Source: a virus
IMG/VR virus record: IMGVR_UViG_3300036985_004952
Coordinates: 1 to 35,367 of that record
Direction: 5' to 3' (one strand)
Length of the DNA: 35,367 nucleotides
Part shown: positions 1-35,367 of the stretch, one piece after another
Numbering within the stretch: the first letter of the stretch is position 1
How the letters are laid out: every line of letters begins with the position of its first letter
The notes under the pieces: model-generated
What the model was told of the DNA's origin: nothing
The model's database searches: none
The model's input: only the letters and a program-made list of their open reading frames with translations
Position numbers and translations under genes: made by a program

Positions 1-42
1 TTAAAAAAAATATTGCAAATAGAAATTAATCTATCTGCAATA
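1..42 (-). terminator. Rho-independent terminator of the recombination operon
   Basis: Bases 11-22 pair with 31-42 (12 bp, one mismatch) around an 8-base AT loop. On the minus strand the stem is followed directly by eight T residues (bases 10-3). It sits just downstream of the gene at 53-298 and, across the circle join, just upstream of the gene starting at 35222. The same element appears at 35241-35282 because of the terminal overlap. Confidence 0.8.
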
Positions 43-127
43 TGTTAATTTTTTAGAATGTTAAATCATCTTCTGCGTTTACTTCTTTTGGCTTTGGCAC
101 ATAAGTATTTTCAACAACAGATAAATC
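1..127. repeat. Terminal direct repeat, copy 1
   Basis: These 127 bases recur without a mismatch at the other end of the window (35241-35367). The repeat cuts through the gene at 53-298 instead of lying between genes. An overlap of exactly 127 bases is what a de Bruijn assembler with k=127 leaves on a circular contig, so I read it as an assembly overlap showing a circular or circularly permuted genome, not as a biological terminal repeat. Confidence 0.93.
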
Positions 128-3310: not shown

Positions 3311-3859
3311 TTAACTATTTTGTTGGAATAACCAAAGTGATGTGTCTGCTCCGATATTATAATCAACCTTGTCTTGCATGTTTTCAGATAAAGAAATTAA
3401 TTCAACAGAACGATTGGCAAATTTTGAATTTAATGTGCCGGAATAAATAACTTTAAATTCATAGGTTTTTGTAATAACCTTGAAACCCTTTTTTGCAAAG
3501 GTTGATTGGTTTTTTGTTGCACCAACAAAAGATACATTGTGTTCTGAATGTTGAATAATAAAACACAATCCGAATTTGCCCTTAACTAATCTTGTAGAGA
3601 GGACATTGCCATCCATGTCATGTAACTCGTAAGCATGTGCAATCTCCTTGCAAAATCCGCCATTCTCCTCCTGCTCTAAAACATTATACAGCATACCCCT
3701 CATCCTTGACATTTCAAAGTCTTGCGCTTGGTCGCACCTGCCGCCCCATGAATAATCATCTACGCAGTTATAATAATTCTGCATTCTGTAATCTGTGTTT
3801 TTAGTGTGCTCAATTTTTAATGCACTAATTTTGTTTTGGATTTTTTCTGATAATTTCAT
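3311..3859 (-). CDS. Hypothetical protein, 182 aa
   Basis: Not recognised. The N-terminal 60 residues are helical and polar (MKLSEKIQNKISALKIEHT...), with a DDYSWGGRCDQAQDFEMSRMRGM stretch, and the rest is strand-rich (GLCFIIQHSEHNVSFVGATKNQ, KTYEFKVIYSGTL). Four cysteines are spread through the protein without a CxxC pair. The A-rich leader aacgaaaATG precedes the start. Its position in the early operon suggests a host-interaction or early regulatory role, with no direct evidence. Confidence 0.7.
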   Translation of the reverse strand: MKLSEKIQNKISALKIEHTKNTDYRMQNYYNCVDDYSWGGRCDQAQDFEMSRMRGMLYNVLEQEENGGFCKEIAHAYELHDMDGNVLSTRLVKGKFGLCFIIQHSEHNVSFVGATKNQSTFAKKGFKVITKTYEFKVIYSGTLNSKFANRSVELISLSENMQDKVDYNIGADTSLWLFQQNS

Positions 3860-3894
3860 TTTCGTTTTGTTTTGAGGTTTAAAAATTTGGTTAA

Positions 3895-4269
3895 TTATTT
3901 AATTAGATTTACAAAGAATTTTTTTAATTCTAAAATTGATTGATATTTCCATGTTGATGTTTCGCGATGCAATGTTCCCGAACTATTGTTGCGTACATTA
4001 TATTCAGAATCTAAAAAATGTTGATAAGATTTAATTATCATTTTGCATTCTTCAATTACCAATAATTCATTATCAATATTTAATATAAATTCTAATTTGA
4101 ATTGCAATTCATTGATTTGAAATTTGTACATAAATAATTCTTCAGATACCCATGCAAAATAATAAAGGAAATCTTGATTTAATTTTGTTTCTGCCTCAAC
4201 TATTTTTGTTTTTAAATAATTGATTTGACTTGCAATTTCTGATTGAATTGTAATAGCTTGATTTTTCAT
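3895..4269 (-). CDS. Hypothetical coiled-coil protein, 124 aa
   Basis: Not recognised. The first 90 residues are almost entirely helical with heptad-like spacing (IASQINYLKTKIVEAETKLNQ, FQINELQFKLEFILNIDNEL), so a coiled-coil dimer is likely. The C-terminal part (SSGTLHRETSTWKYQSILELKKFF) resembles an extended strand and helix. It starts after an A-rich leader and lies behind a hairpin that separates it from the gene at 4332-4529. Confidence 0.65.
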   Translation of the reverse strand: MKNQAITIQSEIASQINYLKTKIVEAETKLNQDFLYYFAWVSEELFMYKFQINELQFKLEFILNIDNELLVIEECKMIIKSYQHFLDSEYNVRNNSSGTLHRETSTWKYQSILELKKFFVNLIK

Positions 4270-4291
4270 TTTGTTTTGTTTTTGGTTTTGG

Positions 4292-4322
4292 TTTAAAAAT
4301 ATGCGCCGGCATTTTACCGGCG
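4292..4322 (-). terminator. GC-rich hairpin between early genes
   Basis: GCGCCGG pairs with CCGGCGC around a 7-base loop (bases 4302-4322). On the minus strand the stem is followed by ATATTTTT. It lies between the first gene of the early operon and the second, so it may be an attenuator that sets the ratio between them rather than a complete stop. Confidence 0.65.
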
Positions 4323-4331
4323 CAGGCTAAA

Positions 4332-4529
4332 TTATGCTAATCTAAAAGATTGATTATCAATAGAAACATAATAAGTTTCAGATGTATAAGAACCAAAGAT
4401 TGCAGAACCATCTTGTAATGCTACTATCAAAAAGATTGGCCCTCTATTTTTTCTTACATTTTTTAATTGTGTAAAATTACCATTCTTGATAATTTCATTT
4501 GCTTTGGTGATAATGTTTTGTAAGTTCAT
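4332..4529 (-). CDS. First gene of the early operon, 65-aa hypothetical
   Basis: Not recognised. Begins MNLQNIITKANEIIKNGNF and ends with strands (IFLIVALQDGSAIFGSYTSETYYVSI). I chose the ATG at 4529 because it follows the A-rich leader shared by neighbouring genes (aaaacaaaacgaaATG) and lies about 32 nt below the predicted transcription start. A longer in-frame start at 4634 would begin upstream of the promoter and place the -7 and -33 boxes inside the gene, so I reject it. Short basic N-terminus, no membrane segment. Confidence 0.7.
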   Translation of the reverse strand: MNLQNIITKANEIIKNGNFTQLKNVRKNRGPIFLIVALQDGSAIFGSYTSETYYVSIDNQSFRLA

Positions 4530-4567
4530 TTCGTTTTGTTTTGGTTTTGTATGCAATAGCGCATGAC

Positions 4568-4597
4568 CAAATATAATCGTATTTATTAAAATACAAA
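4568..4597 (-). promoter_or_regulatory. Bacteroidota-type promoter for the early operon
   Basis: On the minus strand TTTG (4597-4594), an 18-nt spacer, then TATATTTG (4575-4568), matching the Bacteroidota -33/-7 form TTTG and TAnnTTTG. Transcription should start near 4561, about 30 nt above the ATG at 4529. A terminator for the preceding operon lies just upstream. The promoter upstream of the glycan island (14375-14346) has the same boxes and the same 18-nt spacing. Confidence 0.7.
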
Positions 4598-4662
4598 ACT
4601 TTTTTTTATTATTTTTTAAAAAGCGAGCTGACAATCATAAAATCGCAGAAAATAATTAGCTA

Positions 4663-4693
4663 TAAAAAACAAAAGGCCGGTATAAAACCGGCC
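4663..4693 (-). terminator. Terminator of the lysis/late operon
   Basis: GGCCGG pairs with CCGGCC (bases 4674-4693) around a TTTTATA-type loop. On the minus strand the stem is followed by TTTTGTTTTTT. It lies downstream of the spanin-like gene (4743-5180) and immediately upstream of the early promoter, so it insulates the late transcript from the early one. Confidence 0.75.
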
Positions 4694-4742
4694 CATTGCA
4701 CCTATCAAAACTAAAAAACACTATGAATAATCAAATATAAGA

Positions 4743-5180
4743 TTATTTTAAATAAAGAAATAGTATGAATAACAACAATAGAGATATAATTATAATAACA
4801 ATAAACCATTTGAATTGGAATGCAGTCTTTTCTACGCGCTGTGCTTTAACTTCTTTCTTTGTTACTACCATTTGCTCCGCTTTAATTTGTTGTCTTTCTG
4901 CGGCTCTTATTTGGCTTTTATATTTATGCCATTTCTTTTTTACTTTTTTAATTGGAATGCTTGTTTTGGTACCGGCACTATCTGTTGAAATTTGGTAATC
5001 TGTTGTTTCTTCTTCAACAATTAAACCGGTATCAGTTTGCAAAGTTAAAATTTGAATATCTTTTTTAATTTCAACATGGCTGCTGCTATCCGTTTCAATT
5101 TTATTAATTGTTTTTATCTCTTTGGTTTTGCATCCAATTAAAAAAATAAGACATGCTGCTATTACTATTTTTAATTTCAT
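4743..5180 (-). CDS. Candidate unimolecular spanin (lipoprotein with C-terminal TM)
   Basis: 145 aa. The N-terminus is a lipoprotein signal (MKLKIVIAACLIFLIGC) with lipobox L-I-G-C and lipidation at Cys17. The middle is polar, Thr/Lys/Glu-rich and partly coiled. The last 22 residues (WFIVIIIISLLLLFILFLYLK) form a transmembrane helix. An outer-membrane lipid anchor at one end and an inner-membrane helix at the other is the defining layout of u-spanins such as phage T1 gp11, which fuse the two membranes in the last step of lysis. It lies in the lysis region with holin and endolysin. Function is inferred from topology, not sequence similarity. Confidence 0.75.
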   Translation of the reverse strand: MKLKIVIAACLIFLIGCKTKEIKTINKIETDSSSHVEIKKDIQILTLQTDTGLIVEEETTDYQISTDSAGTKTSIPIKKVKKKWHKYKSQIRAAERQQIKAEQMVVTKKEVKAQRVEKTAFQFKWFIVIIIISLLLLFILFLYLK

Positions 5181-10588: not shown

Positions 10589-10856
10589 AATGAGAAGATA
10601 AAATTCCTATTAAATAATTTAATCCGGCTGCTATAATTGCCACCGGTATTAATTGTGAATTAAAACCATAAAATATTGGATACCAAAATAAAGTATGGAA
10701 CGATGCCATACATGTAAGACACAAACAAATAGGCTTCCCTAATATTGCAGGCAATTTAGCTGCGGCCCTTTGTATGAAAAACATTATTTGTCCAAATCTT
10801 GTAACTTGATAAAATCCAAAACAAAGTAAACTGATAATAAATGCTTTTTCTATCAT
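10581..10856 (-). CDS. Small membrane protein with Cys pair (DUF1360-like)
   Basis: 91 aa with three hydrophobic segments: IEKAFIISLLCFGFYQV, PICLCLTCMASFHTLFWYPIF and LIPVAIIAAGLNYLIGIL. The centre has PICLCLTCMASFHT, resembling the Cys-containing segment of DUF1360-type membrane proteins. It lies inside the glycan island with an ATGA overlap to the glycosyltransferase before it. A membrane partner suggests that at least part of the island acts at the host envelope. Confidence 0.7.
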   Translation of the reverse strand: MIEKAFIISLLCFGFYQVTRFGQIMFFIQRAAAKLPAILGKPICLCLTCMASFHTLFWYPIFYGFNSQLIPVAIIAAGLNYLIGILSSHYE

Positions 10857-11482
10857 AATAAAATTCCTTTCATTTCATTTGGCACATACTGCGGAAAGAT
10901 AAATTCATGCGGATGCTTTTTCATAAGGTATAAAATGTTTCTTTTTTGCTGTTCCCATTTTTTTTCGCCTTTATAATTGCGCAACCTTTCAAAATCATTG
11001 TGCATTATGTAATTAAAATTAAATAATTGTTTTTTAATTAACTTCTTTCTTGTCAATCCAATGTATAAATCTACATCTTCGCCGCCATATCCAATAAAGT
11101 TTTCATCGTATCCAATAAAATCTTCTCTTTTAACTATGCAATTCCCGCTGCAATGTGGCTCGCCGGTATAATAGCAACCGGCTTCTAAATTTAATTCATC
11201 AAAAAAGTTACTTTCAAAAATAGTATCTGCATCTGCAAACAATATCCAATCTGATTTGCATTGCGCTGCTCCAATATTCCGCGCCGCAGAAAGATTAAAA
11301 CCTTTAGCTTCAACCATTATCCCGATAGCATTGTTTTTAGCCCATCTGTAAGCTAATATATCTCCATAGGCAACAATTATAACGCGGATATCCTTTCGTT
11401 GCCCTATCGCCTTTAATAGAGTTACATAAGATTTGCGCAAATGCGGCAATCTATCTTTGCAAGTAATTACAATATCTATCAT
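10853..11482 (-). CDS. GT2/GT27-like glycosyltransferase
   Basis: 209 aa. Begins IDIVITCKDRLPHLRKSY, then RVIIVAYGD, then FNLSAARNIGAAQCKSDWILFADADTIF (about residues 63-90), where DAD is the metal-binding motif, and later IGYGGEDVDLYIGLTRKKL, the acceptor-side ED motif of galactosyltransferase-like GT-A enzymes. I chose the ATG at 11482 since it overlaps the methyltransferase stop as ATGA. The longer start at 11512 would overlap by 34 nt. Confidence 0.85.
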   Translation of the reverse strand: MIDIVITCKDRLPHLRKSYVTLLKAIGQRKDIRVIIVAYGDILAYRWAKNNAIGIMVEAKGFNLSAARNIGAAQCKSDWILFADADTIFESNFFDELNLEAGCYYTGEPHCSGNCIVKREDFIGYDENFIGYGGEDVDLYIGLTRKKLIKKQLFNFNYIMHNDFERLRNYKGEKKWEQQKRNILYLMKKHPHEFIFPQYVPNEMKGILL

Positions 11483-12018
11483 TTTACTACTAAAATTCCA
11501 ATGCCGCCCCATGCGCCATCGCCATCAATTATTTCGTATGCTTCAAATCTTTCATCTTTATTAATTTCATCCCAAAATAAATCCACTCTGCAAAACAATT
11601 CGCGATGCAATGGCGTATCTAAAATATCATGGAAAGCAATTACGCCGCCTTTCCTAACTAATTTATGATATAATTGAAAATCTGCTTTTACGCCTGCGTA
11701 ACTATGGTCGCCATCTATCATTAAAAAATCAATCTTTGTATTTTTACCGCCGATTCCGTCTTTTAATATTGGCAATGCTTTTTGACTATCTTCAATTATG
11801 TAAGTTACACCTTCCAATCCCGAACGCTCTTCTAAATCAATTGAAAAAACTTGTTCAAATATTTCTTTATAAGCATACAAGCATCCGCCATCGTAGCTGC
11901 CTATTTCAACTGCAATTTTTTTGCTCTGCATGCTATCTAAAAATATTAATAGCTTTTCTAATTCTTTTGGATGTTGCTGTGCTTTGTTTTCTAATGCTAA
12001 TTTTACTAATTTTTTCAT
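11479..12018 (-). CDS. SAM-dependent class I methyltransferase
   Basis: 179 aa. Motif I is VEIGSYDGG (about residues 37-45), an acidic residue ends the second strand (FSIDLEE, Asp61), and the later DFLMIDGDHSYAGVKADF and GGVIAFHDI segments match the Methyltransf_24 / cephalosporin-hydroxylase-like group, often found in glycan clusters. No DNA-methyltransferase motif (PCQ, DPPY) is present, so it more likely methylates a sugar or small molecule than DNA bases. It lies between glycosyltransferases, 2 nt after the upstream stop. Confidence 0.82.
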   Translation of the reverse strand: MKKLVKLALENKAQQHPKELEKLLIFLDSMQSKKIAVEIGSYDGGCLYAYKEIFEQVFSIDLEERSGLEGVTYIIEDSQKALPILKDGIGGKNTKIDFLMIDGDHSYAGVKADFQLYHKLVRKGGVIAFHDILDTPLHRELFCRVDLFWDEINKDERFEAYEIIDGDGAWGGIGILVVK

Positions 12019-26396: not shown

Positions 26397-27099
26397 TTAA
26401 TAATTTTTGTAAGTTTTTTTCATATTGCCTTTCTATGTGCTTATAAGTTAAAAATGTATAGGCTTCTCCAACTGATGTTTTTGAAACAGCATCTATGTCC
26501 TTATAAACTCCCCCTGCCAATTGCACCAAAGTTAAATATCCCCCAAATTGTTGCAGCGTTTGTAAACCTGCTTCTAATTGTATATCTTCAACTTCGTTTT
26601 CAAACAAAGGTAGGAATTTGTTTTTAATATCTTCAAATTCTTGGTTGATAATGTTTTGGTAAAAAAGTGCAACAGATGCCGGCATATCCAACCAAACATT
26701 TAATCGGTCTTTAATCCTGCTATCAAAATTGTAATCGCCTGCTTCTAAAATGCATAAGTATGGCAGCGCATTCCATGCATTATCTTTCTGCTGCATTAAC
26801 ATTGCTTTCCAATCTTCAAATTGGCCAATCGGGCAATCTATTAATAAATTTAAATCAATACCTTTTTGCTCATGCAAAAATTCGCCATCCATTAAAATTT
26901 CAATTAGCTGTATAATTTTAAACCGGCCCTCTATGCTTATGTTAAAAAAAACTTCTTCCGGCACCGGTATTAAATCAAAAACTATATTGTCATAATCTTT
27001 TTCATTTATTTTTTCAGATATGGCTATAAATTGGCGCAGCGTAATTTCATTCAATTGCGTTGGAAATTGGTATTCTTTGTCTATTGTTATTAAAACCAT
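26365..27099 (-). CDS. Hypothetical protein after terminase, 244 aa
   Basis: Not recognised. Helical, with several Leu/Ile-rich helices (FKIIQLIEILMDGEFLHEQ, TLQQFGGYLTLVQLAGGVY) and a basic C-terminus (EKNLQKLLSEKANRN). It overlaps the large terminase by 10 nt. In many Bacteroidota phages an unannotated helical protein occupies this slot and could be a tail assembly chaperone or head-tail adaptor. Confidence 0.6.
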   Translation of the reverse strand: MVLITIDKEYQFPTQLNEITLRQFIAISEKINEKDYDNIVFDLIPVPEEVFFNISIEGRFKIIQLIEILMDGEFLHEQKGIDLNLLIDCPIGQFEDWKAMLMQQKDNAWNALPYLCILEAGDYNFDSRIKDRLNVWLDMPASVALFYQNIINQEFEDIKNKFLPLFENEVEDIQLEAGLQTLQQFGGYLTLVQLAGGVYKDIDAVSKTSVGEAYTFLTYKHIERQYEKNLQKLLSEKANRNIQD

Positions 27100-28226
27100 G
27101 ATATCTTTTTGTTTGCAGCTTTAAAGCCATTATAAAATCCGTAACGCATTGCGTCCATTCCATCATCATTAAATTTAACCGGCTCATCTAAAGGTTTATT
27201 GTTCTTATCTACCTTCCATTTGTATGTGCGCAACTCTTTTACCAAATTCGGACTATCTATTATGAATAAAGGTTTTGATTTTATAGCATTGATGCCATCC
27301 TTTACCGGCTTCTCTGCGGAGAAAACATTTAATCCGGACTGATATAGTTCTTCTATTGTATCCGGTCGCGCTGCGTCGCCGTAAATCTGTATGCTGCCTA
27401 AATTTAAACTGCGCATCTTTTCAATTAGTGCTGCGGTTGTTAATCCGCTTTCATAGATTAATTCCTGCGCGTATAATGTGGTGTCGCTCCAACCGGTTTT
27501 GATTAATGCTGTTGGATGGTTATAACCAAAGTCTAATCCATAAACAAACGGAATGTCCGCAGGAAATTCATTTGCTGTGCTCCAATGCCTATAAATCAAT
27601 CCTTCTATGCGGCCGGTAACTCCGCGCGCATAAACTTTCCACAATTCAAAATCTATATTTTTTAATCCCTCTATTTCATCTATAATGCTTTGCGGCACAT
27701 AAGGATTATTTCTATAATCTGAATATAAAAATGTAGCAATTGGATTATTCAAATATTCTTCATGCACCCAAAACTCTGCATCCGGATTGTAATCAATAAA
27801 AACTTTTTTCTTCGTTCTGATTATTAGCTGTTTGCAAATATTAACATCAATACCATTGGCTTCATTAATAAAAAGGTAATCGCGCTTTCCGGATTTGGCA
27901 TCTTGCGCATTATCGTAAGATTGGAATTCAATTGTGCTGCCATTACGGAATACAAATGTGCGTTCTGATTTATTGAAACTAAATATTTCTGCTTCAATTA
28001 ATGGCGTATCTAAATAAATGTTTTGGAAATCGCGCAGCGCGCCGCGTTTTAAGTTTGGAATATCTTGTCCAACTATGGTAATCAAACAACCGGCATCCGT
28101 TAATGCAATGTAAGATAGCACCTGCAAGATAGAATAAGTTTTTGATGACCATGTGCCGCCTTGATTGATAACAATTTTTGTATCAGCCTGCAAATTTTCA
28201 TCAAAGAGTTCTGTTGTTTCAAACAT
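27090..28226 (-). CDS. terL: Terminase large subunit
   Basis: 378 aa. ATPase: Walker A-like GGTWSSKT (residues 23-30), Walker B DYLFINEAN (116-124). Nuclease of the RNase-H fold: LDFGYNHPTAL with Asp232, IYGDAARPD with Asp284, and NDDGMDAMRYG with Asp354/355/358. It cuts concatemers and pumps DNA into the prohead. The length is short for terL (usually 400-450) but all motifs are present, so it seems complete. Confidence 0.93.
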   Translation of the reverse strand: MFETTELFDENLQADTKIVINQGGTWSSKTYSILQVLSYIALTDAGCLITIVGQDIPNLKRGALRDFQNIYLDTPLIEAEIFSFNKSERTFVFRNGSTIEFQSYDNAQDAKSGKRDYLFINEANGIDVNICKQLIIRTKKKVFIDYNPDAEFWVHEEYLNNPIATFLYSDYRNNPYVPQSIIDEIEGLKNIDFELWKVYARGVTGRIEGLIYRHWSTANEFPADIPFVYGLDFGYNHPTALIKTGWSDTTLYAQELIYESGLTTAALIEKMRSLNLGSIQIYGDAARPDTIEELYQSGLNVFSAEKPVKDGINAIKSKPLFIIDSPNLVKELRTYKWKVDKNNKPLDEPVKFNDDGMDAMRYGFYNGFKAANKKISWF

Positions 28227-28227
28227 G

Positions 28228-28602
28228 CTATTCTAAATCTATTTCGTTTTCCGCTTTCTTAATTCTGTGGTCTGTCCTTATAATTGATATCTGTAAATGG
28301 TTGTCCATGGTACCGGTAACTTCCTGCTCTACGCGTTCAATATATCCGCGTTTCTTGCCTTTTGTCTTTAAGAAAAATATTGTGGCTGTGGTATCGCCAT
28401 CTCTAATCTTATTGTGCAACCGGCTTTCTGCAAAGTCTAAAGTCAAATTTTCAATTTCTTCAACTGCTGTTTTGTATTCTGTATCATTGCCCATCCACAA
28501 ATAATGCGTAGACCTTGCAATGCCAACTTGCATGCATGCGCCGGTAACTATTCCCAAGTTCTTTTCCAATGCTTCAAGCATTGCCTTTTTTTGTATGTCC
28601 AT
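28228..28602 (-). CDS. terS: Terminase small subunit
   Basis: 124 aa. N-terminal helix-turn-helix (ALEKNLGIVTGACMQVGIARSTHYLW) with the G-x-x-T-x-A-C x-x-x-G-x-x-R-x-T pattern of small terminases, followed by oligomerisation helices (TAVEEIENLTLDFAESRLHNKIRDGD) and KTKGKKRGYIERVEQEV. It recognises packaging DNA and loads the large subunit. It is one base upstream of terL and 10 bp downstream of the TET-like dioxygenase, so the modification genes and the packaging genes share one transcript. Confidence 0.88.
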   Translation of the reverse strand: MDIQKKAMLEALEKNLGIVTGACMQVGIARSTHYLWMGNDTEYKTAVEEIENLTLDFAESRLHNKIRDGDTTATIFFLKTKGKKRGYIERVEQEVTGTMDNHLQISIIRTDHRIKKAENEIDLE

Positions 28603-28612
28603 TTTCGTAGTC

Positions 28613-29410
28613 TTAAATGCCTTTAAATGCTTTCAGAGGATAAAATATTAAACTATTGCGGTATCCGCCATCATGTATTGGAATAATTGGCGTTACTCCA
28701 TGCAGGTTGCGCCATGCAGGATAAACCAAAATTGAATTATCGCATTGGTCAATCGTGGCATTGTAATCCGGCACATTAAGGTTTCCGCCAATAGAATTCA
28801 AACGCTTTGTGATTATAACATTTACTGCGCCAACTATATTGCCGGCATCTCTATGGTAATCCGCATTGATATTATAGTTTGAAATGCTACTTGTAAACAA
28901 ATTGCCAAATCGCCATTCTTTTTTCACATCTTTAAATAATTCTTGCTGCGCTGCATATTGCTGCGGCAAAATGTCTTGGATTAAATCTTCTGCTTCTTTG
29001 GCTAATAATAGCATCGCTTTAATGAACATTCCGGCCGATTTAACGGAGTGAACGCTGCTGATGGTAGGATAAGGCCTGCGCATGTGTGGTTTCGGTGCCA
29101 CAGAGCCTAAAATGGTGCTGAACTGCGTTACTAAATTCTTACCGGCTGCGGCCCTTGCTGCCTTGTCCGCTTTATTGCCTTGCGGCCCTCGGCTCATTTC
29201 TTGCTTTGGTACATTCTTTGAAAGTAATTCCGCATTCGCTAAATCTGCTAACTTACTTGCTTTCGTTGGCATGCTGCGCAAAAAGAAACCAATCGGATTG
29301 CCATCTGCGCCATAGAATATGCAATCTTCTGTAATATTTGGCTCTACATAAATACATTTATCGCCAATCTTATTTGCATGCGGCTGCTCAATTAAATCTA
29401 TTCTTTTCAT
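28613..29410 (-). CDS. TET/JBP-like 2OG-Fe(II) DNA dioxygenase
   Basis: 265 aa. The double-stranded beta helix is in the C-terminal 100 residues: NADYHRDAGN gives the iron ligands His186 and Asp188, then GAVNVII, RLNSIGGNLNVPDY, then the second His237 in WRNLHGVTP, and Arg251 in YRNSLIFYPL as the 2-oxoglutarate anchor. The HRDAGN and GGNL-x-VPDY-pattern match the TET/JBP family, which hydroxylates methyl groups on DNA bases (5-methylcytosine in TET, thymine in JBP). The N-terminal 110 residues are basic and helical and may bind DNA. It overlaps the glycosyltransferase as ATGA. Substrate base is not fixed by sequence. Confidence 0.85.
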   Translation of the reverse strand: MKRIDLIEQPHANKIGDKCIYVEPNITEDCIFYGADGNPIGFFLRSMPTKASKLADLANAELLSKNVPKQEMSRGPQGNKADKAARAAAGKNLVTQFSTILGSVAPKPHMRRPYPTISSVHSVKSAGMFIKAMLLLAKEAEDLIQDILPQQYAAQQELFKDVKKEWRFGNLFTSSISNYNINADYHRDAGNIVGAVNVIITKRLNSIGGNLNVPDYNATIDQCDNSILVYPAWRNLHGVTPIIPIHDGGYRNSLIFYPLKAFKGI

Positions 29411-30135
29411 ATTGTTTGTTTTTTAACATTCTTATTCATTTTCAATTCCGTATATTTTGATTTTCTTTTTGTGTTTATGCTGTAAACTTCCGGATACATT
29501 TTGCACAGCATTAATGATGCTTCTTTTTCTATGGCTTCTCTATTTGCCATTTCTTGCATGCCGCCGGCATTGCTATAATTGTTTGTCAGACAAGATATAA
29601 AATTAAACCTTGCAATATCTCCAAGAATATTATAGTACAAAACGCTTCTTTCATAATCTGTCTTTGAACGCATCTTGCACATTAACCGGCTATCTTGCTG
29701 CGCCTTAAATCCAAATAGGTTTGCAACAATATAAGTCAATCCAATATCTATTGTCTTGCTCATAAAAAACTTATTTGAACTTGGATATACGCCAAATGAA
29801 TTAATATTATGCCCCAAACAATAGCTTTCTATAAACTTGAATAGCTTTGCGATGTCGCTTGTTACTAAAGATTGAATTTTTTTAATGTCATCTTCAATAA
29901 CAAATATAAAATCGTTGCCATCAAAATAGCTTTGTATGAAATTAAACTTATCTGTCGCATTATCTGTATTGCATTGGATTAGATTATAACCGGCGCATTC
30001 TTTTTGATATAATGGCATATCCTGCGCATCGCTTACAAAAATATAGATATCCGCTTTATTGAATTGTTGCAAAAGGTTTAATGTCAATTTGTTAATTACA
30101 TTTGCCCTGCGGTGTGTGGGTATTGCTATCTTCAT
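29407..30135 (-). CDS. TET-associated glycosyltransferase (TAGT-like)
   Basis: 242 aa. N-terminus IAIPTHRRANVINKLTLNLLQQF matches the I-P-S/T-x-x-R-A-N-x-x-x-x-x-T start of TAGT-type GT-A enzymes, then the GYN-x-L strand, NATDKFNFIQSYF helix and FIFVIEDDI (residues 75-84), whose EDD fits the metal site. This family sits beside TET/JBP dioxygenases in phage genomes and transfers sugar to oxidised bases. I chose the ATG at 30135, which overlaps the kinase stop as ATGA. The longer frame from 30189 adds 18 residues inside that gene. It is the strongest sign that the dioxygenase product is glycosylated. Confidence 0.82.
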   Translation of the reverse strand: MKIAIPTHRRANVINKLTLNLLQQFNKADIYIFVSDAQDMPLYQKECAGYNLIQCNTDNATDKFNFIQSYFDGNDFIFVIEDDIKKIQSLVTSDIAKLFKFIESYCLGHNINSFGVYPSSNKFFMSKTIDIGLTYIVANLFGFKAQQDSRLMCKMRSKTDYERSVLYYNILGDIARFNFISCLTNNYSNAGGMQEMANREAIEKEASLMLCKMYPEVYSINTKRKSKYTELKMNKNVKKQTI

Positions 30136-31064
30136 ATCAAATCTGCGATATTGTTTACTATTGAAATATATTTTTCTTGGTATTTGCAAACGCGCAATCC
30201 TTCAGCGACTGCAAATTTTATAACATCCGGCCCAAATGCCTGCGCAATCTTTTCTGCTTCCGCGTAATTTTGCTCAAATGCTATTAAACTGAAATACGCT
30301 TTGCCGGCATCTGTTAAATAGCTGCCAAATATATTGCGGCTGTTTGCATCAATGCAGTATATCTTATCTGCGACTAAAATATTTGTTGTTGATAAATCTC
30401 CATGGAAGAATGTAGCATCGTGCTGCGGCAATTGTAAATCTGCAACCGCCTGCGTTGAATGTTTTATTGGTTTTATGTTTTCTAAATATGTTTCAAATGG
30501 TACCGGCTTCCCATCTATTGTGCGCATTTTATTAATTACCTCAATAAAATCCTGCGCCATTGGCTTTCTATGGTCTTTTATGCGTTCTGTAATAATCAAT
30601 TCATCGTTGCAAAATAAAACCTTTGGAATATCTAAATGCGCTGCGGCTATTTTATACCATTCAAATTCAAATAATGCGCTTTGCGTTTGTTTGATTATGG
30701 TATCCGGCGTGAATATTATTTTATTTTTTGTGAACGGACTTAATAAACCGGCAAATGCTGCATCTTGGTTTATTGTCATATCATCAATGTACATTGTTGC
30801 GTATTCTTTGTTGAAACTTATGCAATCAAATGGCACATTGTATTTATTTAACCAATCTGATATTAATTTTTGGTATCTGATTTGTTTTTCTTCTGCGGAA
30901 AGATTTGATTTTGAGCCCCTTGCTGTTACAATTTTTATCGTTGGATTAATTTCCGCGCGCAGCAATTGCAATCTTTTTATCAATAAAAGATTTGGCTCTA
31001 ATATGCTGATGTGGCTTTTGTTGCCTAATGCCAATGTCCCATCAAAATCAACTGCTATAATCAT
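30132..31064 (-). CDS. HAD phosphatase - APH-type kinase fusion
   Basis: 310 aa. N-terminal HAD-like domain: DFDGT (Asp6, Asp8), TARG (residues 47-50) and DDM (Asp94/95), the three usual motifs. C-terminal APH/choline-kinase-like domain: HGDLSTTNIL (residues 221-230, catalytic Asp223 and metal-binding Asn228) and IDANSRNIFG (Asp239). Together they could dephosphorylate and phosphorylate a small alcohol or sugar. With the nucleotidyltransferase upstream they look like the activation steps of a nucleotide donor. It starts and ends with 4-nt overlaps. The substrate is unknown, and a role for this pair in the base-modification operon is inferred from context. Confidence 0.8.
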   Translation of the reverse strand: MIIAVDFDGTLALGNKSHISILEPNLLLIKRLQLLRAEINPTIKIVTARGSKSNLSAEEKQIRYQKLISDWLNKYNVPFDCISFNKEYATMYIDDMTINQDAAFAGLLSPFTKNKIIFTPDTIIKQTQSALFEFEWYKIAAAHLDIPKVLFCNDELIITERIKDHRKPMAQDFIEVINKMRTIDGKPVPFETYLENIKPIKHSTQAVADLQLPQHDATFFHGDLSTTNILVADKIYCIDANSRNIFGSYLTDAGKAYFSLIAFEQNYAEAEKIAQAFGPDVIKFAVAEGLRVCKYQEKYISIVNNIADLI

Positions 31065-31582
31065 AATGCTTCAAAATAATCTTCTATATCGCCTAATCTT
31101 ATAAATGTATTTTCTTTAATTGTTTTGGCACCAATCATTCCGGACGCTATGCTATTGTCATCTGTCATGTTTTGCAATAAAGCTGCAATTGATTTAACAA
31201 AATACGCGCCGCTGCATTTTATGTTTGATATATTTTCTTTTTCCGATACCGCAATTACTCTATCGCCAATTAAATTCAAAGAGCCATATTTATTCTTATC
31301 GCTTTCAAAAACAAATATTGTATCTTCTTGGAAATCAATTTCTTGCTCTAATAAAGGTATAATATCACAATCAATAATTAAACAATCTATTTCATTTTCA
31401 ATCTCTTTTAATGTTTCTTTGCGGCTGTTTGTTTTTTTATTGCCAATCAAAATTGCTTGCGGATATAATTCTAATATCAAATCTATAATCCGATGCCCTT
31501 TATAATACAGCAAATGTTTTTCTTGCGGACTAATTGCTTTCATCCGCGTTCCATTGCCACCAATTGTTATAAAGACTTTCAT
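31061..31582 (-). CDS. Sugar-type nucleotidyltransferase
   Basis: 173 aa. N-terminus VFITIGGNGTRMKAISPQEKHLL carries the G-G-x-G-T-R-M...P-x-K signature of NDP-sugar pyrophosphorylases. The rest (IDCLIIDCDIIPLLEQEI, TIFVFESDKNKYGSLN) has the usual acidic strand end for metal. It is shorter than typical 230-300 aa members, so the C-terminal sugar-binding part is reduced. It would join NTP with a phosphorylated sugar or polyol. It lies between the ParB-like gene and the HAD-kinase, in ATGA overlap with both, and thus probably makes the donor for the glycosyltransferase downstream. Confidence 0.82.
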   Translation of the reverse strand: MKVFITIGGNGTRMKAISPQEKHLLYYKGHRIIDLILELYPQAILIGNKKTNSRKETLKEIENEIDCLIIDCDIIPLLEQEIDFQEDTIFVFESDKNKYGSLNLIGDRVIAVSEKENISNIKCSGAYFVKSIAALLQNMTDDNSIASGMIGAKTIKENTFIRLGDIEDYFEAL

Positions 31583-32181
31583 TTTAGCTTATTTTTTTCT
31601 TCTTTAAGTTTTTCAATAATCACGCCGCCGATATACATCTTTTGTTCGCGCCAAAATTTTATTAATGCCTGCGCTTCTTCGTAATGTTCTGCTTCAAATT
31701 CAATCTGAATTGCTTTCTTTACGCCATCCGCCATATCAGAAACCAAATTATCTAATCCGCCGCTTGCATCATCTAATAAACTATAATCAACATCGGCCGG
31801 CTGTTGCCATAAATCTAATCCGGATGCATCTATTAATTCACTATCCCAATTGTTTGCAAGCATATCGTAATCCCAATCTCCAAATGAAACATTATCCGTT
31901 ATTACAAATCTATCAATTTGTTCTTGGCTTAATTCGCTCACTAAAATAATTGGAACATCTTTTAAACCTACTTCTTGACATGCTCGATATCTTTGGTTGC
32001 CGCCAAGAATTACCATATCATTACTAACAACAATTGGCCGCAGCATTAACATCTCCGGAAATTCTCTTATACTTTTTAAAAGTTTTTTGTATTTATAATC
32101 CTTTATTACTCTTGGATTGCTTGGATTGATTTTTATTATATCAATCTTTACCATTTTTGTTGGCATTAGTTTAATTTCCAT
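31579..32181 (-). CDS. ParB-like domain protein
   Basis: 200 aa. The ParB/sulfiredoxin-superfamily domain covers residues 12-110: IIKINPSNPRVIKD, then LRPIVVSNDMVILGGNQRYRA with the GGNQRYRA box (60-67), and LSQEQIDRFVITDN. Many phage proteins join this domain to a DNA methyltransferase. Here the methyltransferase is missing and a 90-residue acidic/Gln-rich helical tail follows. Members bind nucleotide and DNA. Which role this one has (DNA recognition, nuclease or kinase) is not evident. It opens the modification operon and overlaps RusA by 11 nt. Confidence 0.8.
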   Translation of the reverse strand: MEIKLMPTKMVKIDIIKINPSNPRVIKDYKYKKLLKSIREFPEMLMLRPIVVSNDMVILGGNQRYRACQEVGLKDVPIILVSELSQEQIDRFVITDNVSFGDWDYDMLANNWDSELIDASGLDLWQQPADVDYSLLDDASGGLDNLVSDMADGVKKAIQIEFEAEHYEEAQALIKFWREQKMYIGGVIIEKLKEEKNKLK

Positions 32182-32506
32182 ATTTATTTATTTTAAATGC
32201 TATGTATTCCTTTCCTTTACTAACTATTTTTTTAACAATGTAAAGTTCATAAATTTGTTTATCGTCAAATCTATATCTTTTTTGTAAAATATCCAAAAAA
32301 GGTTTGACCGGATTGTCTATATCTTTGGCTGCATTGCTAAATCCAAACTCAATTTCTATGGTTAATGCGCCGGCCGGTATTTGCAGCGCAGGCAAAATGC
32401 AAAGCAATTCTGTTTCATAACTTTTATATTTCTTACTCTTGTATCTGCGCCCCTGCCATGCTTCGTTTACCGAGAGAGGTTGTATTTGTGCAATTCCTTT
32501 AACCAT
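32171..32506 (-). CDS. rusA: RusA-like Holliday junction resolvase
   Basis: 111 aa. N-terminal LSVNEAWQGRRYKSKKYKSYE matches the RusA start (P-L-S-x-N-x-x-W-x-G-R-x-x-K). The catalytic acidic site is KDIDNPVKPFLDIL (residues 66-79, with Asp67, Asp69 and Asp76), followed by DDKQIYELY. RusA cleaves four-way junctions, useful before packaging of recombined DNA. The first 40 nt overlap the HNH gene in another frame. The N-terminal match supports the start. Confidence 0.9.
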   Translation of the reverse strand: MVKGIAQIQPLSVNEAWQGRRYKSKKYKSYETELLCILPALQIPAGALTIEIEFGFSNAAKDIDNPVKPFLDILQKRYRFDDKQIYELYIVKKIVSKGKEYIAFKINKYGN

Positions 32507-35240: not shown

Positions 35241-35367
35241 TTAAAAAAAATATTGCAAATAGAAATTAATCTATCTGCAATATGTTAATTTTTTAGAATG
35301 TTAAATCATCTTCTGCGTTTACTTCTTTTGGCTTTGGCACATAAGTATTTTCAACAACAGATAAATC
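35241..35367. repeat. Terminal direct repeat, copy 2
   Basis: This is an exact copy of bases 1-127. It carries a second image of the terminator at 1-42 and of the 3' end of the gene at 53-298. Joining the two copies gives a unique circle of 35,240 bp in which the last gene of the recombination operon, its terminator, and the first replication gene (start at 35222) are neighbours. Confidence 0.93.

Follow-up and report, generated by a model that had tools for sequence, protein, structure and literature searches.

Gene content and layout of the locus

The window analyzed here is the entire IMG/VR virus record IMGVR_UViG_3300036985_004952 with a length of 35,367 nucleotides (nt). Between positions 28613 and 32181, its minus strand carries five consecutive genes encoding a protein with a ParB N-terminal domain (ParB), a sugar-nucleotidyltransferase-like protein (NTase), a fusion of a HAD phosphatase and an APH-type kinase (HAD-APH, 30132-31064), a TET-associated glycosyltransferase (TAGT), and a TET/JBP 2-oxoglutarate (2OG)-Fe(II) dioxygenase (TET). 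A RusA-like resolvase gene, which shares 11 nt with the ParB gene, is located upstream, and the genes of the small (TerS) and large (TerL) terminase subunits follow downstream, TerS at a distance of 10 nt from TET (Table 1). Families were assigned to the window proteins by means of Pfam, NCBIfam, and PHROGs. The initial annotation, made from the sequence alone, had described five minus-strand genes at this place, headed by a ParB domain, joined pairwise by 4-nt overlaps and situated just before the terminase, and all of these features were recovered. The overlap reads exactly ATGA at four out of four junctions (ParB/NTase, NTase/HAD-APH, HAD-APH/TAGT, and TAGT/TET). In case of HAD-APH/TAGT this requires an internal ATG of the TAGT gene as start instead of the upstream TTG of the mechanically predicted open reading frame (ORF), and TAGT homologues begin at the same internal ATG.

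The record is bounded by direct terminal repeats of 127 bp, and a closely related viral contig (L006) runs through the end-to-end junction of the window. Due to the exact repeat and the continuity of L006, the window is best interpreted as a circularly closed tailed-phage genome of approximately 35,240 bp. Since the genome is complete, the absence of genes from it carries meaning. No tRNA gene was found in the window.

Table 1. Position and family assignment of the terminal repeats, the operon, and its neighboring genes in the window.
Feature	Position	Strand	Basis
Direct terminal repeat, copy 1	1..127		exact match to copy 2
Direct terminal repeat, copy 2	35241..35367		exact match to copy 1
RusA-like resolvase (flank of the exchanged interval)	32171..32506	-	RusA 2.6e-7
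ParB N-terminal-domain protein, 200 aa	31579..32181	-	Pfam ParB_N 8.9e-11
Sugar-nucleotidyltransferase-like protein (NTase), compact, 173 aa	31061..31582	-	TIGR03992 2e-4
HAD phosphatase domain of HAD-APH fusion, residues ~1-106 of 310	30747..31064	-	TIGR01689 1.4e-7
APH/choline-kinase-like small-molecule kinase domain of HAD-APH fusion	30132..30746	-	RIO1 1e-3, APH 0.013
TET-associated glycosyltransferase (TAGT), 242 aa from ATG	29407..30135	-	PF20691 5.5e-8
TET/JBP 2OG-Fe(II) dioxygenase, 265 aa	28613..29410	-	PF12851 E=2e-8
Terminase small subunit (TerS)	28228..28602	-	phrog_309 5e-9
Terminase large subunit (TerL)	27090..28226	-	Terminase_3 8e-11

Family assignment of the dioxygenase and the glycosyltransferase

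The Tet_JBP profile (PF12851) scores 34.1 bits in a single-protein scan of the dioxygenase, just below the cut-off of 34.9, and 35.2 bits, above it, in the genome search. An HxD...H metal triad and a 2OG-binding arginine are present. The previously noted “HRD” at residues 186-188 is the HxD motif, and H186, D188, H237, and R251 show no variation among 36 close and 11 diverse homologues, the latter including those of phages PRodriguez, Altadena, and S-CBWM1. Because searches of PDB were nearly empty for this protein (no match of phmmer to PDB sequences, and TET2 only at E=0.16 with the profile), a fold comparison was required. The top 26 PDB matches of an AlphaFold2 model, built on an alignment of 36 relatives (mean predicted local distance difference test score, pLDDT, of 77), all belong to the TET family (CcTet, human TET2, NgTET1, and CMD1), and other 2OG oxygenases rank after them. 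Assignment of the dioxygenase to TET/JBP is thus supported by profile and modeled fold. The database names queuine tRNA-ribosyltransferase, DpdA-like transglycosylase, and SNF2 repair protein, stemming from PHROG and GenBank, were rejected for this protein. Labels of the former two types, queuine tRNA-ribosyltransferase or DpdA-like tRNA-guanine transglycosylase, are also found on the TET/JBP homologues of PRodriguez (L003, 813-1691) and PHROG 6059, where they are probably mistaken.

The glycosyltransferase matches the TAGT profile PF20691 with 33.4 bits, above the curated cut-off of 27.5. Within the EDD motif noted near residues 81-83, D82 and D83, the acidic metal/nucleotide motif, are invariant in 18 sequences. 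Fold matches of an AlphaFold2 model derived from 18 sequences (pLDDT 86) are GT-A glycosyltransferases. In the structural comparison, which the initial annotation had named beforehand as its refuting test, the dioxygenase hence falls with the TET family and the transferase among the GT-A enzymes. A further, weak glycosyltransferase-like match (phrog_13126, 2.6e-4) is situated amid structural genes at 10853-11512 of the window.

A predicted donor-making trio and its recurrence

The NTase carries an N-terminal GGxGTRM motif, in line with the nucleoside diphosphate (NDP)-sugar pyrophosphorylase signature listed in the initial annotation, and its match to TIGR03992 is weak and below family cut-offs. 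Searched alone against annotated phages, the window protein gave no match. The profile of its family matches glucose-1-phosphate thymidylyltransferase (9e-4) and other sugar pyrophosphorylases, and relatives in the phage contigs L086 and L125 are 60-69% identical. The assignment becomes convincing only due to the occurrences in L006, L086, L125, and S-CBWM1. For the HAD domain, the match to the EcbF/BcbF subfamily model TIGR01689 is sub-threshold, and its profile finds 1xpj in PDB with 1.8e-12. The kinase-domain profile resembles methylthioribose and choline kinases (E approximately 0.02), and the HAD-APH protein searched alone gave weak matches only. The HAD motifs DFDGT (DxD), TARG, K, and DD as well as the kinase motifs HGD/ID are intact across four relatives, as expected for the proposed HAD/APH fusion.

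This trio of NTase, HAD phosphatase, and APH kinase was observed together with TAGT and TET in three configurations, i.e., in the window, L005, and L007, as a trifusion in L006, and in the cultured Synechococcus cyanophage S-CBWM1. Window and L006 share 92% identical DNA through RusA and ParB and 94% from TET on, with 97% identity of the TET proteins. From the ParB stop to the TET start, the interval of L006 is replaced and, except for a single 70-base match within the TAGT genes, unlike the window DNA; it encodes a TAGT of 249 aa and, behind it, a single 597-aa protein in which NTase, HAD, and APH domains are fused. The HAD-APH parts of both are homologous (24% over 271 residues). Judged by homology, the same three predicted activities therefore come with TAGT in two separate builds. 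In S-CBWM1 (L004), gp8 to gp12 encode TET, TAGT, HAD, NTase, and APH, respectively, of which gp8 (3729-5165) is a TET/JBP dioxygenase (Pfam 4e-18) despite its annotation as a putative SNF2 DNA repair protein. The more distant phage L086 contains ParB-NTase-HAD/APH-TAGT on a contig that stops before TET. With the L006 trifusion as query, no relative was detected in a scan of bacterial genomes and only the query itself in IMG/VR, and the trio could thus not be traced to a cellular source; the NTase of S-CBWM1 likewise retrieved only S-CBWM1.

Wherever the trio lies inside the ParB-TET interval, be it in one of two gene orders or as a trifusion, TAGT accompanies it. Due to this recurrence with TAGT (L006, L086, and S-CBWM1), the trio probably makes the sugar donor of TAGT. 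The proposal of the initial annotation that the two small-molecule enzymes make this donor is strengthened by the trifusion, by S-CBWM1, and by the homology of kinase and phosphatase to the RB69-type module considered below.

A HAD-APH fusion and a cytidylyltransferase-like gene were also observed in Agathobaculum phage AB434P2 (L128, 416-5582), adjoining genes for a deoxyuridylate hydroxymethyltransferase, a dUTPase, and a thymidylate-kinase-like protein. AB434P2 is probably another decorated hydroxymethyluracil phage.

Exchange of the interval between ParB and TET

A scan of IMG/VR yielded 364 TET relatives, of which 80 were kept, and the genes upstream of TET were clustered. Where both ends could be seen, in approximately 65 related viral loci, ParB and TET stay constant, and the content between them varies. 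A single TAGT-like glycosyltransferase was found in 34 loci and an FkbM methyltransferase in 20. Several others contain a P-loop kinase, which may be joined by an ADDT-family protein, a GNAT protein, and an amidotransferase, and the rest either the donor set of the window type or, in two loci (L040, 2358-3263, and L041), an unrelated 301-aa protein without a PHROG match. Recurrence of the arrangement in independent viral contigs, for which a neighborhood search had been suggested in the initial annotation, places it beyond chance.

Among the glycosyltransferase loci, median pairwise identity amounts to 76% for TET and 62% for ParB versus 21% for the glycosyltransferase, and the interval glycosyltransferases form ten subfamilies at 45% identity. 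Considering the parsimony minimum on a quick maximum-likelihood TET tree with many weak forks, at least 17 changes are required for the class of finishing genes and at least 33 for the finer type. In six DNA comparisons of related backbones, homology of the flanks breaks off at the ParB stop or no more than approximately 15 bases from it, and restarts within approximately 16 bases of the TET start. The interval between ParB and TET is thus exchanged as a unit with near gene-exact boundaries. Swapping of the decorating genes between the kept outer genes probably changes the DNA disguise of each virus.

Apart from TET, no member of the cassette is as constant as ParB. Phage ParB-CTPase folds bind various nucleoside triphosphates (NTPs) and frequently occur linked to DNA methyltransferase domains (PMC12704722), and for this reason a role of ParB in DNA loading or tethering appears plausible by analogy.

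In contig L072 (4655-8768), ParB, an FkbM methyltransferase, ADDT, a FAD-oxidoreductase-like protein, a P-loop kinase, and TET are encoded in one run, i.e., a set resembling the finishing genes of thymidine hypermodification is stacked with a methyltransferase. A contig binned as uncultured beta-proteobacterium (L131, 4461-7174) contains ParB, a 309-aa gene, TET, and a TerS-like gene, so that the frame recurs there around a different finishing gene.

Proposed pathway and alternatives

With a probability of about 0.78, we regard the cassette as a system for post-replicative hypermodification of DNA bases. ParB and TET would form the constant frame, with ParB as probable DNA-binding clamp or tether. 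In the presumed order, TET would hydroxylate a pyrimidine of the phage DNA at its 5-methyl group, with thymine, converted to 5-hydroxymethyluracil, as a more likely target than 5-methylcytosine (5mC). The HAD phosphatase would remove the phosphate from one end of a sugar phosphate, the APH kinase would phosphorylate the anomeric end, and the NTP-transferase would nucleotidylate the sugar phosphate to an NDP-sugar, the sugar of which TAGT would move onto the hydroxymethyl base. Before packaging, this decoration would come to shield virion DNA from nucleases.

Several observations weigh against this reading, in part or as a whole. A C5-methyltransferase match is present in 3 of 23 related viral records, and phage TETs studied by Burke and co-workers in 2021 reportedly act on 5mC, which leaves cytosine as a possible target. 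No isomerase was found among the window ORFs scanned, and the compact NTase was matched weakly on its own. Finally, a 56-kb phage contig (L125, 2846-7465) carries an NTase (61% identical)/HAD-APH pair beside a GDP-mannose 4,6-dehydratase homologue, with no match to TET or TAGT in the contig, so that the trio is not confined to DNA modification.

Regarding the base, we favor thymine as the probable substrate of TET, due to three facts. First, thymine is already methylated. Second, no C5-methyltransferase match was obtained in the complete genome of the window, nor in the deposited genomes of the cultured TET phages MED4-184, Altadena, PRodriguez, and S-CBWM1. Third, TETs with 93-95% identity pair with a glycosyltransferase or with an ADDT-family protein and a P-loop kinase. 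In detail, the TETs of L034 and L042 are 95% identical, one of the two being accompanied by kinase and ADDT-family protein and the other by a glycosyltransferase; the ADDT of L034 is assigned via its cluster, without a direct Pfam match. ADDT (PF18724) was identified in five related TET records with E-values of 1e-11 to 1e-15 and is absent from the window operon. In the passages of PMC11955845 that cite Lee et al. 2018 and 2022, ADDT (aGPT-PPlase2) and 5-hmU kinase are enzymes of thymidine hypermodification. Also in favor of thymine, a match to the thymidylate-synthase family (PF00303) was found in none of 27 related or comparison records.

The alternative that survives best, although we consider it rather unlikely, is a cytosine target, for which a C5-methyltransferase of the host, or occasionally of the phage, would provide 5mC to be converted by TET to 5-hydroxymethylcytosine (5hmC) and glycosylated by TAGT. 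Besides the aforementioned methyltransferase matches and the reported 5mC activity, it draws on the fact that most of the TET-family structures matched are 5mC enzymes and that T-even TAGT is thought to act on glucosylated 5hmC (PMC13390438). The missing methyltransferase in five genomes and the pairing of near-identical TETs with enzymes of thymidine chemistry argue for thymine.

It is improbable that the trio serves another acceptor, e.g., a host surface glycan or a tail protein, with ParB, TAGT, and TET using a host donor such as UDP-glucose. TAGT occurs alone, without the trio, in most relatives, which indicates that TAGTs often use a host donor, and to the L125 pair can be added that HAD relatives carry capsule-enzyme annotations. 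However, the trio lies within the swapped ParB-TET interval, translationally coupled and never without TAGT, and S-CBWM1 repeats the TET-TAGT-HAD-NTase-APH run. Least probable is a nucleotide-activated alcohol or phospho-compound (choline- or polyol-like) as donor of a phosphoryl-linked group, as could be suggested by the choline-kinase resemblance of the APH domain and by the AB434P2 genes next to deoxyuridylate hydroxymethyltransferase, since the NTase profile matches sugar pyrophosphorylases, the transfer enzyme is a GT-A/TAGT glycosyltransferase, and the related kinase and phosphatase belong to an arabinosylation-type module.

In that module, the proposed product of RB69 ORF055c and ORF53_52c is UDP-arabinose, the donor for the arabinosylated DNA of this phage (PMC6024577; see PMC13390438 for a revision of the chemistry). 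An ORF53_52c homologue also occurs in Shewanella phage Thanatos, alongside a demonstrated UDP-xylose pyrophosphorylase (PMC12838424). The T4-like Acinetobacter phage Mokit encodes together an arabinose-5-phosphate isomerase, an NTase-APH fusion, a HAD phosphatase, and a thymidylate-synthase homologue; identity to the L006 trifusion amounts to 51% over 61 residues for the Mokit kinase and to 36% over 104 residues for the HAD. The window shares with this module the joint presence of a putative NTP-transferase, an APH kinase, and a HAD phosphatase, and by analogy its trio may work alike. Membership in the RB69-type donor module was rejected, as neither a SIS arabinose-5-phosphate isomerase nor a thymidylate-synthase-family enzyme was found among the window ORFs scanned. 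A pentose derived from arabinose-5-phosphate is the most specific guess for the sugar, albeit a doubtful one; it may also be a heptose or hexose.

Taking post-replicative hypermodification of thymine together with the cassette exchange, it is tempting to speculate, at somewhat less than even odds, that a widespread phage lineage uses a plug-in system. ParB and TET would make 5-hydroxymethyluracil from thymine on finished DNA, the interval between them would be a hot spot for the exchange of whole cassettes, and the self-sufficient cassette of the window would make its own uncommon sugar donor, leading to a base-J-like nucleoside with a sugar new on hydroxymethyluracil. If so, phages alter how their DNA is disguised by trading the genes that complete a shared chemical handle, comparable to the exchange of capsule or restriction-specificity genes in bacteria. 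Near-identical backbones with different cassettes would then be natural experiments relating finishing enzymes to base chemistry and host-nuclease resistance, the cassettes a source of new DNA-glycosylating enzymes, and the cultured S-CBWM1, MED4-184, and P-HS2 phages in which TET-based hypermodification could be measured. MED4-184 and P-HS2 combine ParB and TET with an FkbM methyltransferase.

Relation to known systems

In kinetoplastid base J synthesis, as proposed for the window, a TET/JBP enzyme (JBP) hydroxylates the base in DNA and a glucosyltransferase then glycosylates it. Base J synthesis uses host UDP-glucose as donor and a transferase unrelated to that of the window, and is not known to involve ParB or donor genes. 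In the RB69 module, Thanatos (TH1_060/063), and Mokit, a related APH kinase, HAD phosphatase, and NTP-transferase are apparently dedicated to a DNA-sugar donor as well, but the base handle is made by a thymidylate-synthase homologue at the nucleotide level and not by TET in DNA, a SIS isomerase is included, and the transferases differ.

Phage TET/JBP-TAGT operons of the kind treated by Iyer et al. 2013 (NAR 41:7635), a study cited in PMC9302106, are among the closest known systems. ParB, TET, and TAGT occur close together in the Acadian-type mycobacteriophage PRodriguez, where the block also precedes the terminase, and in Arthrobacter phage Altadena. In both, unlike in the window, TAGT is followed by a glucosaminyl deacetylase (and adenylate kinase), and an NTase or HAD-APH donor set is missing between ParB and TET. 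Gordonia phage CaiB (genes 1-5 before the terminase, with 4-bp overlaps; PMC9302106) and Rhodococcus phage Tonitrus (PMC11955845) share ParB, TET, and finishing enzymes with the window; in these phages the finishing enzymes are pyrophosphorylase/aGPT-PPlase2 and kinase, whereas the window has a glycosyltransferase and its predicted donor enzymes. S-CBWM1 contains the complete catalytic set in consecutive genes, but in another order, with separate HAD and APH, without an annotated ParB in the block, and in a far larger phage. Between T4 and T6, too, finishing glycosyltransferases are known to be swapped at a single site (PMC13390438).

The novelty claim of the initial annotation, which could name no described case of this combination, was therefore too strong, given the published ParB-TET-finishing operons before the terminase, the related donor module in RB69-type phages, and the set in S-CBWM1. 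As far as checked, new are the apparently dedicated NTase/HAD/APH donor set within an operon of ParB, TET, and TAGT, its trifusion build in the near-identical backbone of L006, the previously unrecognized operon of S-CBWM1, and, on a large sample, the swapping of finishing cassettes at nearly gene-exact boundaries in the ParB-TET interval.

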